Source: a virus
Strand: one strand, 5' to 3'
Virus record (IMG/VR): IMGVR_UViG_3300046002_006058
Span: 1-40,910 of that record
DNA length: 40,910 bases
Positions within the stretch are counted from its first letter, which is position 1; the number at the start of each line of letters is the position of its first letter. The notes under the pieces are model-generated. The model did no database searches. It was given only the letters and a program-made list of their open reading frames with translations, and had not been told where the DNA came from. Below, piece after piece: positions 17,236-23,497 of this stretch. Both the position numbers and the translations under genes were made by a program.

Positions 17236-17490
17236 TTAGGCGTAGCGGTGCTGCGCCGGGGCGTTCGCGGGATCAGCCAGGGCCGCGTGGATGCCCGCCG
17301 CCATTTCCGGGTTTGCCGCCTCGATGCTGTCGGCGTATGCCGACGCCGCGACAATGGCGTGTGGATCGGCTCCCGAGAAGTCGAGGACCATCGAATAGCG
17401 GCGGCTCGCCGGGATGGGCTTGCCGTCGATGCGCTCGATGATGAAGCGGGGCTCAAGGGCGCCAGTCGTTGCGCGGGTCGGTTCGGTCAT
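17236..17490 (-). CDS. 84-residue protein, unknown
   Basis: The protein starts MTEPTRATTGALEPRFIIERIDG, contains a strand YSMVLDFSGADP and ends in an Ala-rich helix (SIEAANPEMAAGIHAALAD). It begins at an ATG overlapping the TGT-like gene's stop (ATGA), so it is translated with it. The mixed beta/helix profile suggests a folded domain. No family match is recognised. Its direct coupling makes it a candidate partner of the putative modification enzyme. Confidence 0.68.
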   Translation of the reverse strand: MTEPTRATTGALEPRFIIERIDGKPIPASRRYSMVLDFSGADPHAIVAASAYADSIEAANPEMAAGIHAALADPANAPAQHRYA

Positions 17491-18191
17491 GCTGCTTGTC
17501 CTTCAAACATATCAGGGTGAGGCTCGCGAATAGTCCAGCGGGGCGGGCATTGCGCCGCGTCCCATCTGTCGGCCATAGCGCGAGCGGTGTTCTGCGGCCG
17601 ATTGTGATTGCGCCCGACGTCTGAGCTGTCGGCGCTTGCGAAGGGGTAGGGAGCCCGCGCCACCACGTCCAAGCCGCGAAGCATGTGGATGGTCGGCGTG
17701 CGCTTGTGGGCCTTGGCGATCTCGTTCCAAACCTGATCCATGCGGGCGGTCCAGGAGGGCGAGAAGATCACCGCATATTCAGCCGTCGAGCCGAAACAGA
17801 TGCGCGGCCACTCGTCCAAGAGCCGCAAGGCCCGGTGGATCGGCTCATCCATATGCCAGACCGGAGCGCCCTTGTGACCGTGGGGCCACTCCCGCAACAG
17901 GGCGTCTTGCTCCTGCGTCCCGGCGTCGATCACGTCAGGGATGACGGCCCAGGTCGTCGGGTAGTCAAGCCACTGGTCGCACCATGCGTAATAGGCGGGC
18001 CAATCGGTCTTCGCGCCGGATTTCCAGACGCTGAACGCCCCGTTGTCGAGCATGACCGATGAGCCGATTTGATGGGCCAAGGCGCATTGACTGCGGGCGC
18101 TGGTCGCGTGCGAGACGCAGGAATTCTTTCCGGCAAGGGTCAGAAGTTCCGCCGCTGGCGTGATCGGGAGGCCGTGATACTTGAGGGTCAT
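17487..18191 (-). CDS. TGT/DpdA-like TIM-barrel protein, candidate base-exchange enzyme
   Basis: The 234-residue protein shows beta-strand/loop motifs in the order of queuine tRNA-ribosyltransferases: VMLDNGAF (D49, like DSGGFQ), WAVIPDVID (D86), VWHMDEP (H113), ICFGSTAEY (G134, like GGLAVGE), IHMLRGLD, and FASADSSDVGRN (D188/D191, like the catalytic FDC-PTRNAR region). These enzymes exchange guanine in RNA, or in phage DNA (DpdA), for a 7-deazaguanine. Start: ATG 18191, overlapping the QueD-like stop; a GTG one codon upstream is possible. The zinc-binding C-terminal Cys cluster of bacterial TGT is absent, and the chain is short, as in small phage DpdA-like proteins. Family assignment is by motif order only; the neighbouring QueD-like gene supports it. 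Confidence 0.55.
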   Translation of the reverse strand: MTLKYHGLPITPAAELLTLAGKNSCVSHATSARSQCALAHQIGSSVMLDNGAFSVWKSGAKTDWPAYYAWCDQWLDYPTTWAVIPDVIDAGTQEQDALLREWPHGHKGAPVWHMDEPIHRALRLLDEWPRICFGSTAEYAVIFSPSWTARMDQVWNEIAKAHKRTPTIHMLRGLDVVARAPYPFASADSSDVGRNHNRPQNTARAMADRWDAAQCPPRWTIREPHPDMFEGQAA

Positions 18192-18475
18192 CACAGCTTC
18201 ACGCAGCAGTAAATCCGCTTCAAGGGGCGGTTCACATCCACGACCAGACAGCCCGGCAAGCGGGTTCCGATCCAGCGGCCGATTTCCTCGGCGCGGGTCA
18301 TCTCGTCGGGAAGGGTCGTGTGGTCGAGTTGGCGAACGACGCCGCCCAGCAGCTTTTGCAAGCCGACTGCATCGCCGGTCTCAAACCACGCAATCACCTC
18401 GTAGGAATGGCCGTGAAGCTCCTTCCGCACGATGTCCTTGTGGGTGACGCTGAGAATGTGGCCGACGCCAATCAT
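18191..18475 (-). CDS. QueD-like / 6-pyruvoyl-tetrahydropterin-synthase-fold protein
   Basis: The 94-residue protein matches the T-fold of 6-carboxytetrahydropterin synthase: H6, then ELHGHSYEV (H21, H23) as the three zinc ligands with typical spacing, QLDHTTL (D51, H52) as the catalytic Asp-His, and RAEEIGRWIGTRL as the helix that follows PTSE in QueD. The Cys that normally sits four residues before the HGH is R17, and the C-terminal substrate-binding Glu is not evident, so activity may be altered. It is shorter than typical QueD (about 120). It is the first gene of the leftward cassette and overlaps the TGT-like gene. No QueC, QueE or FolE is in the phage, so host precursors would be used. 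Confidence 0.78.
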   Translation of the reverse strand: MIGVGHILSVTHKDIVRKELHGHSYEVIAWFETGDAVGLQKLLGGVVRQLDHTTLPDEMTRAEEIGRWIGTRLPGCLVVDVNRPLKRIYCCVKL

Positions 18476-18482
18476 GCGGAGG

Positions 18483-18552
18483 TTGCCCTTTTAAACGGTA
18501 CCGATTACATAAACGGTACCGACTAGCGCCGCAAGCAAATAAAACGGTACCG
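18483..18552. promoter_or_regulatory. Divergent promoter region with three AAACGGTACCG operators
   Basis: The 11-mer AAACGGTACCG occurs at 18493-18503, 18511-18521 and 18542-18552, each containing the palindrome CGGTACCG. On the plus strand TTGCCC (18483-18488), 17 bases, then TACATA (18506-18511) is a possible promoter for the RHH gene. On the minus strand TTGCGG (18534-18529), 17 bases, then TATGTA (the same hexamer) could drive the QueD-like cassette. The operators overlap or adjoin both. The sites lie directly before a ribbon-helix-helix gene, the likely ligand. Confidence 0.7.
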
Positions 18553-18556
18553 CCTA

Positions 18557-18957: not shown

Positions 18958-20193
18958 TCACGCCCCGGATTTCGCTCCGGATTGGCCCGCAATAGCCCGT
19001 CGCGCCGCCCGCTGGTGGTCGGGCCGGTGATGGCCGTAATGGGCCTCTAGAGTTGCCGCCGTCATCCCCAGGAACGCGGCGGCGTCCCAAATGTCGGCCC
19101 CGCCTTCCATGAGCCATGTCGCGGCGGTGTGGCGCAGCCAGTGAGGCGTGATGGCTTCCGGCAGGCCAGCATCCGCGACGCACCCCGCAAAGCCCTTGCG
19201 AACGTCGGTGGCGATAGGCAGGCCTCCGAAGTGCAGGACCGACACCCTCGACGCCATCGGGTCTTTGCGTTTGGCTTCGGCTTCCTTGCGCCGGTCGATC
19301 TCGCGCCAGCGCCGCATATGGGCCAAGAGCCGGGAGGGCAGGCGAACCACGGGGCGGCGCTTGCTGGCGCTGTCCTTCTCGCCCTTGCCCCGGCGATAGA
19401 TCATCCCCTTGTCGAGATCGACCCACGCTTGCTTTGCGGCTTCCTCCCATAGCAGGAGGGTCACGACCTTGGACCGCGTGCCGGTGTAGAGGCCAATCAG
19501 CAGGAACCGGGCGAGGTGCTTGCGGTTCATCTTCACTTGCCGCGTCGTGGGCTCCCAGGAGCCGTCAGGAAGGCGCTTGTGGCCCATCGTGGCCCGTAGG
19601 AGCGCAGCGGCTTGCGAGCGGCTTAGGGCGTCCCGTGGGCTCTCTGGGCGCTTGGGTAGCCAGACGGTCGGGCGGCTGGTCAGGGTGTGTTCGTCGTGCC
19701 AGTAGCCTATTGCGGCGGAAAGCGTCTGAAGCTCGCGCGCGGCGGTCTGGTCTGAGATTGTGCGGGCCGATAGCCCCTTGCCGGATGCGATGCGCTGAGA
19801 GGTCCGCCACGTTGTGTAAGCTTGGCAACTAGACCGCTTCACGTCGGCAACAACGCGCTCACCCCACCAGGCGCTCAGGTTCCGCACCCAGCCTTTGAGG
19901 GATTTCGGGTCCGCGACCTTTGGCCCCTTCTCGACCGAATATAGGGCTAGGACTTCAGCGATTAAGACCTGAGATGGGTCGCTAGGGTTATAACCTGCGA
20001 CCGGCGCCCATTTCGACGCGATGTAGGCGGCGAGGTCTCGCCCTGCGGCGTCAAGCTCGTCTCGATAACGGCCCGTGCTGATCTCAGCCGATCCATCACG
20101 GATGACCCAGACGGGCTCCCTGCGCTTTCCGGTGCTGCGCTCGACGCGGCCCTGTCTGAGATACAGCCGGGGGCCTTTGGCTTGACGGGGCAT
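18958..20193 (-). CDS. int: Tyrosine integrase
   Basis: The 411-residue recombinase has an N-terminal arm-binding/SAM-like half and a C-terminal catalytic domain with R240 (TGTRSK), a downstream basic strand, H351 and R354 (HWLRHT) and nucleophile Y386 (EAHYGHH). All expected catalytic positions except the usual second His/Trp (LGM in place of LGH) are in place. The start MPRQAKGPRLYL at 20193 is the usual one for this integrase group; an in-frame extension upstream has no protein-like character. It lies 34 bases from the tRNA-Val fragment, and would integrate the phage into the host tRNA-Val(UAC) gene. Its 5' end overlaps the excisionase candidate for about 230 bases in another frame. Confidence 0.93.
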   Translation of the reverse strand: MPRQAKGPRLYLRQGRVERSTGKRREPVWVIRDGSAEISTGRYRDELDAAGRDLAAYIASKWAPVAGYNPSDPSQVLIAEVLALYSVEKGPKVADPKSLKGWVRNLSAWWGERVVADVKRSSCQAYTTWRTSQRIASGKGLSARTISDQTAARELQTLSAAIGYWHDEHTLTSRPTVWLPKRPESPRDALSRSQAAALLRATMGHKRLPDGSWEPTTRQVKMNRKHLARFLLIGLYTGTRSKVVTLLLWEEAAKQAWVDLDKGMIYRRGKGEKDSASKRRPVVRLPSRLLAHMRRWREIDRRKEAEAKRKDPMASRVSVLHFGGLPIATDVRKGFAGCVADAGLPEAITPHWLRHTAATWLMEGGADIWDAAAFLGMTAATLEAHYGHHRPDHQRAARRAIAGQSGAKSGA

Positions 20194-20414
20194 TCTGCGG
20201 CCTTGAACATGGCCCTGACCTTGGCGGGCGTGATGTAGAACTTCCCCGCCACCTGGGCAGGCGTCAACGTCCCCTTGCGGATTTCCGTCCGAAGGGAATG
20301 GGTTGTCAGCGGGCCGGTGGGATAGAACACGGCGATATATTCGTCTAGCAGCATCGGCGCGTCGTCTGGCCACTCCTCCGGCCGTGGTCTTTGCTGGACG
20401 CGGGGAGGGGTCAA
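19962..20414 (-). CDS. Excisionase-like HTH protein, overlapping the integrase start
   Basis: The 150-residue protein carries a helical domain (LDEYIAVFYPTGPLTTHSL) followed by TPAQVAGKFYITPAKVRAMFKAA, a winged-helix/MerR-type turn as in recombination directionality factors. The last 75 residues are Ser/Pro/Arg-rich and read in a different frame from the integrase gene, which they overlap. Similar HTH proteins ending in such a tail, overlapping the integrase, are familiar in alphaproteobacterial prophages. The start is TTG at 20414, overlapping the preceding stop as TTGA; the internal ATG (MLLDEY) is an alternative. Function is inferred from fold and position. Confidence 0.72.
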   Translation of the reverse strand: MTPPRVQQRPRPEEWPDDAPMLLDEYIAVFYPTGPLTTHSLRTEIRKGTLTPAQVAGKFYITPAKVRAMFKAAECPVKPKAPGCISDRAASSAAPESAGSPSGSSVMDRLRSARAVIETSLTPQGETSPPTSRRNGRRSQVITLATHLRS

Positions 20415-20530
20415 GGGGTGGGCTCCTGCGATTGGAGGGCGACAGCATCGGCCAGCCGGTTGATGGCCTTCGCCACCTCAGCCGCACCGAGACATACGCA
20501 CCCGGCAAGAAGCACGATTGCAGCCGCCAT
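20411..20530 (-). CDS. 39-residue small membrane peptide, candidate
   Basis: A short frame begins at an ATG overlapping the stop of the upstream gene (ATGA) and ends at a TGA overlapping the excisionase TTG. The peptide has a hydrophobic start (AAAIVLLAGCVCLGAA) and an Ala/Leu-rich helix, so it may be a membrane peptide. Exact overlaps on both sides suggest it is translated. No family is known. Confidence 0.5.
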   Translation of the reverse strand: MAAAIVLLAGCVCLGAAEVAKAINRLADAVALQSQEPTP

Positions 20531-21788: not shown

Positions 21789-23093
21789 TCATGCGGCGGC
21801 TCGCTGGGCTTGAAGGGTCTCGACGGCTGCGATCCGCTGGCCAATCCAGGCCATCACGGGGACAGCCATGCTATTTCCCAGCGACTTGTATCGGGGGCCA
21901 TCGGCGGCCAGGCCGCGCCGGTATGGAATGGCCGTATAGTCGTCGGGGAAGCCCTGAAGGCGCTCGCACTCGCGGGGCGTCAGGCGGCGGACGGAAGACG
22001 CCGCGGCTACAATGTCAGGCCCGCGGTCGTCGCAGGGTGAGCCATCATGACGGCGCGATAGCGTGCGCGCCACGTCGCCCCCGAACGCCACGTAATCCCG
22101 GCTGGAGCCGCCCGACGCCGCCCGAAGCGCCCCGATCTGGTCGCCGCCAACTTCCGGCATGGCGCCGCCTTCCCGGCCGCGCAGGGCGAAGGAAATGGGC
22201 TGGGTGATGAAGCCCCCGCCCTGGTTGCCGCCGACAGGACCGCCAGCCATGATCGGTTGAGCTATGTCAGTTTCGCGGGCCTTGTAATCCTTGCCGCTGT
22301 TCATCGGCATGATGGAGAAGGCAACGGTATGAGCTATGAGCGGAGCGCCATCGCCATCGCCATCGCTTGAAGGGCCTTTTGCGTCGCGGGCTTTCAAGGC
22401 CGGACTGATCATCGGCGCATGAATTAAGCTCTCGCAGGTGTCTACGTCTGTGCCTGGTGGTCGATCCCCGCCCGTGCGGTTGCCTCCAGCGCGGAGCGTA
22501 GGGCTGACGGCAGTTCCTTGCCCCGCTTGGCGGCGCGGCGCAGGATTCCCCGACAGGCCATCGCGCTCAAAAAGAACCGCTGCGGCACGTCGCCAGTCTC
22601 CAAGGTATCCGACAACGAACACACGGCGGCGTCTTTGGGCCACTCCGAAGAACTGAGCGTCAAGCACTCGGTAGGCGAACCCATACCCGAGTTCGACCAT
22701 GCCCCCGAGAATGGCTCCAAAGTCCCGTCCTCCGTTCGACGACAGGACGCCGGGGACGTTCTCCCAAACCAGCCACCGGGGCCGCAGTCGGTCAGCAAGC
22801 CTAAGAAACTCAAGGGCCAGGTTGCCACGGTCGTCATCCAGTCCACCTCGGAGACCCGCGATGCTGAAAGACTGACAAGGTGTTCCTCCGACCAAAAGGT
22901 CGATTGGCTGGTAGTCGCCAGATTGGATCGTCGTGAAGTCGCCATGCAGCGGGGTCTCCGGGTAGTGGTGAGCCAAGACGGCGCGCGGGAACGCCTCGAT
23001 TTCCGAGACGAACGCGGCTTTCCAGCCGAGCGGCTTCCAGGCGACAGATGCAGCCTCAATGCCGCTGCAAACAGATCCGTAAGTGAGGCCCAT
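21789..23093 (-). CDS. DNA (cytosine-5) methyltransferase
   Basis: The protein (about 434 residues) has all C5-MTase motifs: I (GSVCSGIEAASVAW), IV with GGTPCQSFS (catalytic C73), VI (VWENVPG), VIII (QRRRRVFVVG), IX-like (RRLTPRECERLQGFP) and X (YKSLGNSMAVPVM). The 180-residue region between VIII and IX is the target-recognition domain. It would methylate cytosines in phage DNA to evade host restriction. Start: ATG 23093 overlapping the HNH stop, or a GTG one codon earlier. No cognate restriction enzyme other than the coupled HNH gene is present, so it is most likely a solitary protective enzyme. Target sequence unknown. Confidence 0.93.
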   Translation of the reverse strand: MGLTYGSVCSGIEAASVAWKPLGWKAAFVSEIEAFPRAVLAHHYPETPLHGDFTTIQSGDYQPIDLLVGGTPCQSFSIAGLRGGLDDDRGNLALEFLRLADRLRPRWLVWENVPGVLSSNGGRDFGAILGGMVELGYGFAYRVLDAQFFGVAQRRRRVFVVGYLGDWRRAAAVLFERDGLSGNPAPRRQAGQGTAVSPTLRAGGNRTGGDRPPGTDVDTCESLIHAPMISPALKARDAKGPSSDGDGDGAPLIAHTVAFSIMPMNSGKDYKARETDIAQPIMAGGPVGGNQGGGFITQPISFALRGREGGAMPEVGGDQIGALRAASGGSSRDYVAFGGDVARTLSRRHDGSPCDDRGPDIVAAASSVRRLTPRECERLQGFPDDYTAIPYRRGLAADGPRYKSLGNSMAVPVMAWIGQRIAAVETLQAQRAAA

Positions 23094-23497
23094 CACTCCC
23101 CCCTCTCAACTGCGACAAGGCTCCGCTTGGACGTGCCAAAGGGGCGGGAGGGGATGCGGACGGGGACGGATGGCTTGCTGAAGCCGCGCGAATGGATCTT
23201 GCGTTTCATCCGGCCTTCGCCTGCGTCGCGCTTCCTGATCCGGCGAGCCTTGGCAATCATCTTCACGTCAAGGGCGGTCTTGCGCTTATGGCAGGACACG
23301 CAAAGAGGCTTTAGGTTTTGGTCATCGTCAGCGCCGCCAAGCTCCAGCGGAATCGTGTGGTCTAGCTGAAGGCTGTCGGTTATCCCGCAGCCTGGGTAAG
23401 CGCACTTGCCGTGGTACTTGGCGATGATGCGGGCGCGGCGGCTCTGCCCCATTGCCTTGCGGGGAGTAGCGGGGACGGGTTCGCGGGTTAGGGTCAT
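23093..23497 (-). CDS. HNH endonuclease
   Basis: The 134-residue protein has CAYPGC and LCVSCH as two zinc-knuckle pairs flanking LQLDHTIPLELGGADDDQNL, the His-Asn-His core (DH, N and H of SCHK). The C-terminus is basic. The start MTLTREPV at 23497 overlaps the upstream stop (ATGA); the longer frame upstream is not protein-like. HNH genes usually lie by the terminase in head-tail phages; here it is coupled to a methyltransferase within the early operon. It could be a homing-type nuclease, a recombination nuclease or half of a restriction-modification-like pair. Confidence 0.88.
   Translation of the reverse strand: MTLTREPVPATPRKAMGQSRRARIIAKYHGKCAYPGCGITDSLQLDHTIPLELGGADDDQNLKPLCVSCHKRKTALDVKMIAKARRIRKRDAGEGRMKRKIHSRGFSKPSVPVRIPSRPFGTSKRSLVAVERGE

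Follow-up and report, generated by a model that had tools for sequence, protein, structure and literature searches.

Gene organisation of the cassette

The window analysed here, a 40,910-bp virus record from IMG/VR, carries a QueD-like gene followed by a gene resembling those of tRNA-guanine transglycosylases (TGT) and DpdA, both on the minus strand and at the coordinates assigned to them in the original prediction, which was made from the DNA alone (Table 1). The stop codon of the former overlaps the ATG of the latter by one base (TGATG at 18191), an overlap from which the two genes are read as translationally coupled. Translation from this ATG yields the TGT-like protein of 234 amino acids that had been proposed, and an alternative GTG start at 18194, one codon earlier, would give a 235-aa protein. 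The codon-position GC content of the QueD-like (0.63/0.39/0.81) and TGT-like (0.61/0.52/0.78) genes is similar to that of the window's other genes, and the pair is both real and strongly conserved.

The TGT-like gene is joined in turn, through an ATGA overlap, to a third gene. The family of this 84-aa protein, with the pattern FIIER.DG.PI...RRY.VL.F.G.DPHA, adjoins the transglycosylase in 11 loci including the window's own, and was found in both of the partner contexts described below, QueD-like and YhhQ. Its PHROG label, 'sulfatase-modifying factor', looks unreliable.

Table 1. Features of the cassette and its surroundings in the window
Feature	Position	Strand	Evidence
Cys-less QueD-like T-fold protein, 94 aa	18191..18475	-	Pfam PTPS, profile matches, model, Foldseek, alignments
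Compact TGT/DpdA-like transglycosylase, 234 aa	17487..18191	-	phrog_887, model, Foldseek Cap10, BFVD
Third coupled gene, 84 aa	17236..17490	-	phrog_9572, recurrence beside the transglycosylase
Divergent ribbon-helix-helix (CopG-type) regulator, 67 aa	18557..18760	+	Pfam RHH_1, E 9e-5
Tyrosine integrase adjoining the cassette	18958..20508	-	Pfam Phage_integrase, E 9.3e-9; phrog_1, E 1e-31
Probable operator, three TAAACGGTACCGAYTA-like repeats with palindromic core CGGTACCG	18492..18556		Repeat scan, divergent promoter

The cassette had been credited with its own regulator, and this was identified as the divergent ribbon-helix-helix (RHH) gene. The gap between it and the cassette is filled by three near-identical repeats sharing the core CGGTACCG; a scan for operator-like repeats returned four matches against 0.32 expected by chance, and the repeats are a probable operator on this sequence evidence. 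The same three-gene order is found in Caulobacter phage DMCA (DMCA_033c-035c, PQ480021), the first two proteins of which share 67% and 57% identity with those of the window, and where a divergent small gene is likewise accompanied, at the equivalent position, by three operator-like repeats of different sequence. The divergent regulator of DMCA is, however, HTH-like, whereas that of the window is of the RHH type. The three DMCA genes are annotated only as a 6-carboxytetrahydropterin synthase and hypothetical proteins.

The window had been taken for a prophage; it is better described as a virus record in which an integrase lies beside the cassette. Genes for FolE, radical-SAM QueE and QueC, noted as missing, were indeed not found in the window, nor was a gene for YhhQ found within its 40,910 bp, and megablast of its packaging region among phages retrieved no relative. 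The window also contains a C5-cytosine DNA methyltransferase gene (21789-23096, minus strand) whose matches are split among several PHROGs; it is a possible second DNA-protection gene of this phage.

A compact transglycosylase with a TGT-type barrel

The 234-aa protein matched phrog_887 (E 5.6e-47), with relatives in about 100 phage records and more than 100 viral contigs. It had no match to any Pfam family, and neither Pfam TGT (PF01702) nor Pfam DpdA (PF23859) was matched by any of 36 family members; as it falls outside both, it is a separate subfamily of the TGT/DpdA superfamily. The motifs LDNGAF, IPDVID, FGS and SADSSD, which had been seen to follow the order of TGT enzymes, proved to be conserved among homologues, the strongly conserved alignment blocks being HYHGTPITP, MLDNGAF, PDVI, APVWHMDE, CIGS, HMLRG and SVDSTD. 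Residues D50, D87 and D189 are conserved in at least 90% of the 36 diverse members and, by motif order, are assigned putative TGT catalytic roles.

Sequence comparison gave little to connect the family with known enzymes: phmmer and hmmsearch of the PDB found no significant sequence-only link to a known TGT, and hhalign with a narrow profile gave nothing significant against either E. coli TGT (an approximate query sequence) or the DpdA-like protein P0005 of phage phiST. Against Pfam-DpdA relatives the hhalign match was colinear but weak (E 0.026), and a broad family profile matched a second phage transglycosylase family at 5e-6. It was the search with the predicted fold that settled the TGT kinship. 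A model built from 47 sequences (pLDDT 91.6) was a confident TIM barrel, and its matches in BFVD were mostly phage queuine tRNA-ribosyltransferases (down to E 3.7e-9), with DpdA2 of nt-1 (E 2.6e-3) and phiST ranking lower. The barrel expected of the 234-residue protein was thus found, through Cap10 as well as through phage TGT/DpdA proteins.

Cap10 of type IV CBASS (PDB 9ntn), an enzyme of the TGT family reshaped for deazaguanylation (PMC11996544), was the best match of the model in the PDB (Foldseek E 3.4e-5), and two Cap10-CdnD chains were the only PDB matches below 1e-3. This ranking favours an alternative in which the cassette is a Cap9/Cap10-like protein-conjugation or anti-defence module and what the TGT-like protein binds or modifies is itself a protein, although the scarcity of small TGT-fold proteins in the PDB may explain it. 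Cap10 acts with a protein partner rather than on nucleic acid and needs both the QueC-like Cap9 and a CD-NTase, which are absent here; no QueC/Cap9-like gene was found in the window, the cassette proteins had no PADLOC match, and the partners across loci are QueD-like proteins or a base transporter. We consider a conjugation module of this kind very improbable.

A QueD-like protein without the QueD catalytic residues

The 94-aa protein matched Pfam PTPS (E 5.8e-4), and its family profile matched QueD/PTPS structure chains with E-values from 1e-6 to 4e-4. A model from 50 sequences (pLDDT 97.2) found E. coli QueD as its best Foldseek match (E 1.2e-5, TM 0.78). In an alignment of 50 homologues H12, H21, G22, H23 and R83 never vary, while conservation of D51, H52, E63 and E86 is 90% or more. 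Thus the fold, the zinc His triad, the Asp-His dyad and Glu63 of QueD (COG0720) are all retained. The D51-H52 pair had been named correctly, as had the zinc ligands H21 and H23; in the alignment of the QueD site H6, the first ligand proposed, was rejected for want of conservation and its place falls to the invariant H12.

QueD activity requires a catalytic Cys and a pterin-anchoring Glu, the latter sitting in a KE/YE pair. In contrast to QueD, the window protein and nearly all of its homologues lack the Cys of the CX3HGH loop, and the protein is some 25 residues shorter. The loss of this Cys had been recognised, and only its description as a simple replacement by Arg (R17) was rejected: the Cys-bearing loop is about six residues shorter and its residues are variable. 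No Cys or Glu is conserved in the shortened loop, and a Glu-based PTPS-III site was also rejected, there being no acid conserved at one position. Compared with the canonical QueDs of loci L029, L151 and L165 and of E. coli, the family lacks the CX3HGH loop as well as the KE/YE pair, and the position of E. coli QueD Glu110, for which there is no equivalent, is taken by Pro84 or, if the gap is placed differently, by Arg83. On these alignments the protein is probably not a QueD-type synthase. The absence of the other preQ0 genes had been taken to mean a partial preQ0 pathway; the genes are indeed missing, but 'partial pathway' describes the QueD-like protein poorly for this same reason.

It could still be argued that the protein is a 6-carboxytetrahydropterin synthase working through a shifted residue, so that the cassette boosts host preQ0 flux. 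Its zinc site, dyad and fold are those of a synthase, and a canonical QueD with both Cys and Glu adjoins the window's transglycosylase family at L029:2278-2619 and L165:7221-7616, and the active enzyme thus also serves phages as a partner. Set against this are the shortened loop, in which neither Cys nor Glu is conserved, and the Pro or Arg at the Glu110 position, with R83 invariant among the 50 sequences, and we regard a displaced synthase as unlikely. The loss of both catalytic features of QueD, together with the invariant Arg, instead favours another reaction, with a related small molecule as its substrate. The family, of which one in 50 members matched a PHROG, is essentially unannotated and may represent a new T-fold enzyme.

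One QueD-like family beside three transglycosylase families

Viral contigs were searched with the QueD-like profile alone, which gave 65 loci. A TGT/DpdA-like gene lay beside the match in 63 of them: 57 had the window's own transglycosylase family, three a second family (L103, L117 and L151) and three a third (L111, L123 and L137). The remaining two comprised L119, with no transglycosylase within reach, and L150, which is cut 222 bases upstream. Two loci of the third family were scanned, and their transglycosylases are Pfam DpdA (PF23859; E 1e-43 to 1e-45). One QueD-like family therefore serves three transglycosylase families, one of which is Pfam DpdA. At L151:5304-6926 a member of the second family (phrog_15826, unnamed) lies behind QueC and a canonical QueD in one operon, which suggests that phrog_15826 is also a DpdA family. 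QueD-like variants in which HGH is changed to HDH or HQH were seen at L196:2608-2976, beside DpdA, and at L265:3612-3998, beside the second family.

The window's family resembles Pfam DpdA (Hutinet et al. 2019, PMC6884629) in its TGT-type barrel, its motif order, its phage origin and its deazaguanine-related neighbours, the QueD-like and YhhQ partners being common to both. It differs in that none of its 36 members matched Pfam DpdA and its profile link is weak. Salmonella phages BTP1 and SPN3UB and Vibrio phage D105, grouped under phrog_887, encode proteins of the same sequence family without a QueD-like partner in the regions examined. In several enterobacterial and vibrio phages, for example BTP1 (L006) and D105 (L007), neither a QueD-like gene nor YhhQ is near the transglycosylase.

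Alternation with the importer YhhQ

The other frequent neighbour of the transglycosylase is Vut_1/YhhQ, of the YhhQ/QPTR family of preQ0/preQ1 importers (PMC11130926); Sinorhizobium phage phiLM21 carries such a DpdA-YhhQ version. After removal of near-identical transglycosylases, 116 non-redundant loci remained, of which 43 had a Cys-less QueD-like partner, 2 a canonical QueD, 35 YhhQ and 36 neither. QueD-like protein and YhhQ occurred together in none of the 116, against about 13 expected by chance, a comparison in which kinship is addressed by tree counts only. On well-supported branches of the transglycosylase tree at least six changes were needed for the QueD-like partner and at least four for YhhQ, and repeated partner switches are thus needed. 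The same exclusion was seen with the other two transglycosylase families, where loci with QueD-like, YhhQ and both numbered 6, 3 and 0 and 4, 7 and 0, respectively. We read the QueD-like protein and YhhQ as alternative suppliers of a 7-deazaguanine base to the transglycosylase, and its neighbours taken together, QueD-like, canonical QueD and YhhQ, point to 7-deazaguanine chemistry.

Among 26 bacterial genomes carrying the window's transglycosylase family, QueC was missing from 4 of the 7 with YhhQ at the locus and from none of the other 19 (p 0.002). All four QueC-less genomes are MAGs, for which incompleteness is a caveat, so isolates alone cannot support the association; among MAGs only, QueC was missing from 4 of 5 with YhhQ and from 0 of 5 without. 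The pattern fits, and is suggestive of, a role for YhhQ in hosts unable to make preQ0. In the control list, QueC is encoded by Caulobacter, the genus that DMCA infects. In a Massilia genome (G016, L168), a second QueC lies about 1.6 kb from a divergent TGT-like frame (contig C24:473050-475764; PF01702, E 4.7e-7), possibly a bacterial dpd-type cluster.

Proposed function and target

From the folds, the loss of the QueD catalytic residues, the linkage to three TGT/DpdA families and the mutual exclusion with YhhQ, all established by computation, we infer a chemistry, a substrate, a DNA target and a protective role for the cassette. It is probably a small phage operon, under regulation of its own, that serves 7-deazaguanine base exchange, with DNA as the likeliest target, the QueD-like protein as supplier or tailor of the base, and protection as the outcome. 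The 234-aa enzyme would cut the glycosidic bond of guanine via an Asp-linked intermediate, probably on D189 (D50 and D87 would lie in the base pocket), and would insert a 7-deazaguanine base drawn from the host queuosine pathway. The zinc-binding T-fold protein, its QueD reaction lost, would supply or tailor this base from a host intermediate, filling the role that the imported base has in related phages with YhhQ. The phage's own DNA would be the most likely substrate, and once modified may be protected from restriction or another DNA-targeting defence. In substance, the original reading of the pair as a deazaguanine-modification cassette is supported by the barrel fold, the neighbours and the QueD-like family shared with Pfam DpdA.

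The transglycosylase might instead act on tRNA or another RNA, such that the phage alters host decoding with no protection of DNA. The tRNA enzymes belong to the same superfamily, and the PHROG label of the family is queuine tRNA-ribosyltransferase. The tRNA enzyme, however, has a CxCxxC/His zinc set, which does not appear in the conserved columns of the family, and a canonical tRNA TGT is already encoded by 24 of the 26 genomes mentioned above, which would make a second tRNA enzyme redundant. DNA is favoured by the presence of a TGT in the host and by the occurrence of this QueD-like partner beside the DNA-modifying Pfam DpdA, and an RNA target appears quite unlikely. Phage MED16, which encodes DpdA without preQ0 genes and contains dADG in its DNA, indicates that DpdA and a host-supplied precursor suffice for DNA modification (PMC8306585).

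A bolder and more tentative proposal, which we hold to be possible though on balance doubtful, is that the Cys-less, Arg83-bearing family has a new activity, converting a host intermediate into a base that the host does not make and that the three DpdA-type families insert. The substrate could be 7-carboxy-7-deazaguanine, its carboxylate held by Arg83. If so, either the DNA base itself or the route to it would be undescribed. DpdL, reportedly predicted by Cui et al. 2023 (NAR) to be a 7-carboxy-7-deazaguanine decarboxylase, resembles the QueD-like protein in being a small protein of DpdA phages with a predicted enzymatic action on an intermediate of the queuosine pathway; if the two are the same family, the novelty falls. 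Cellulophaga phage phiST encodes FolE-QueE-QueD, with no QueC in its annotation. Near these genes lies CGPG_00067 (L091:46838-47185), a 115-aa protein with an H...HRH pattern, which was rejected as a QueD paralogue and DpdL candidate (QueD-like profile E 0.05 only, hhalign without support). It may be a second T-fold protein lacking the Cys, here in a phage that also has a DpdA-like gene.

The new element is a QueD-derived protein family, widespread and essentially unannotated, which accompanies DpdA-type enzymes and alternates with a transporter of the precursor. Many phages carry a DpdA-like gene only (group 3, PMC6884629), and the alternation of QueD-derived protein and importer offers a concrete and testable answer on the base that DpdA-only phages use and on its source. 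It predicts in which phages the base used for DNA modification is made by the host and in which it is imported, and the cultured relative DMCA, a phage of Caulobacter CB15, makes the cassette directly testable.
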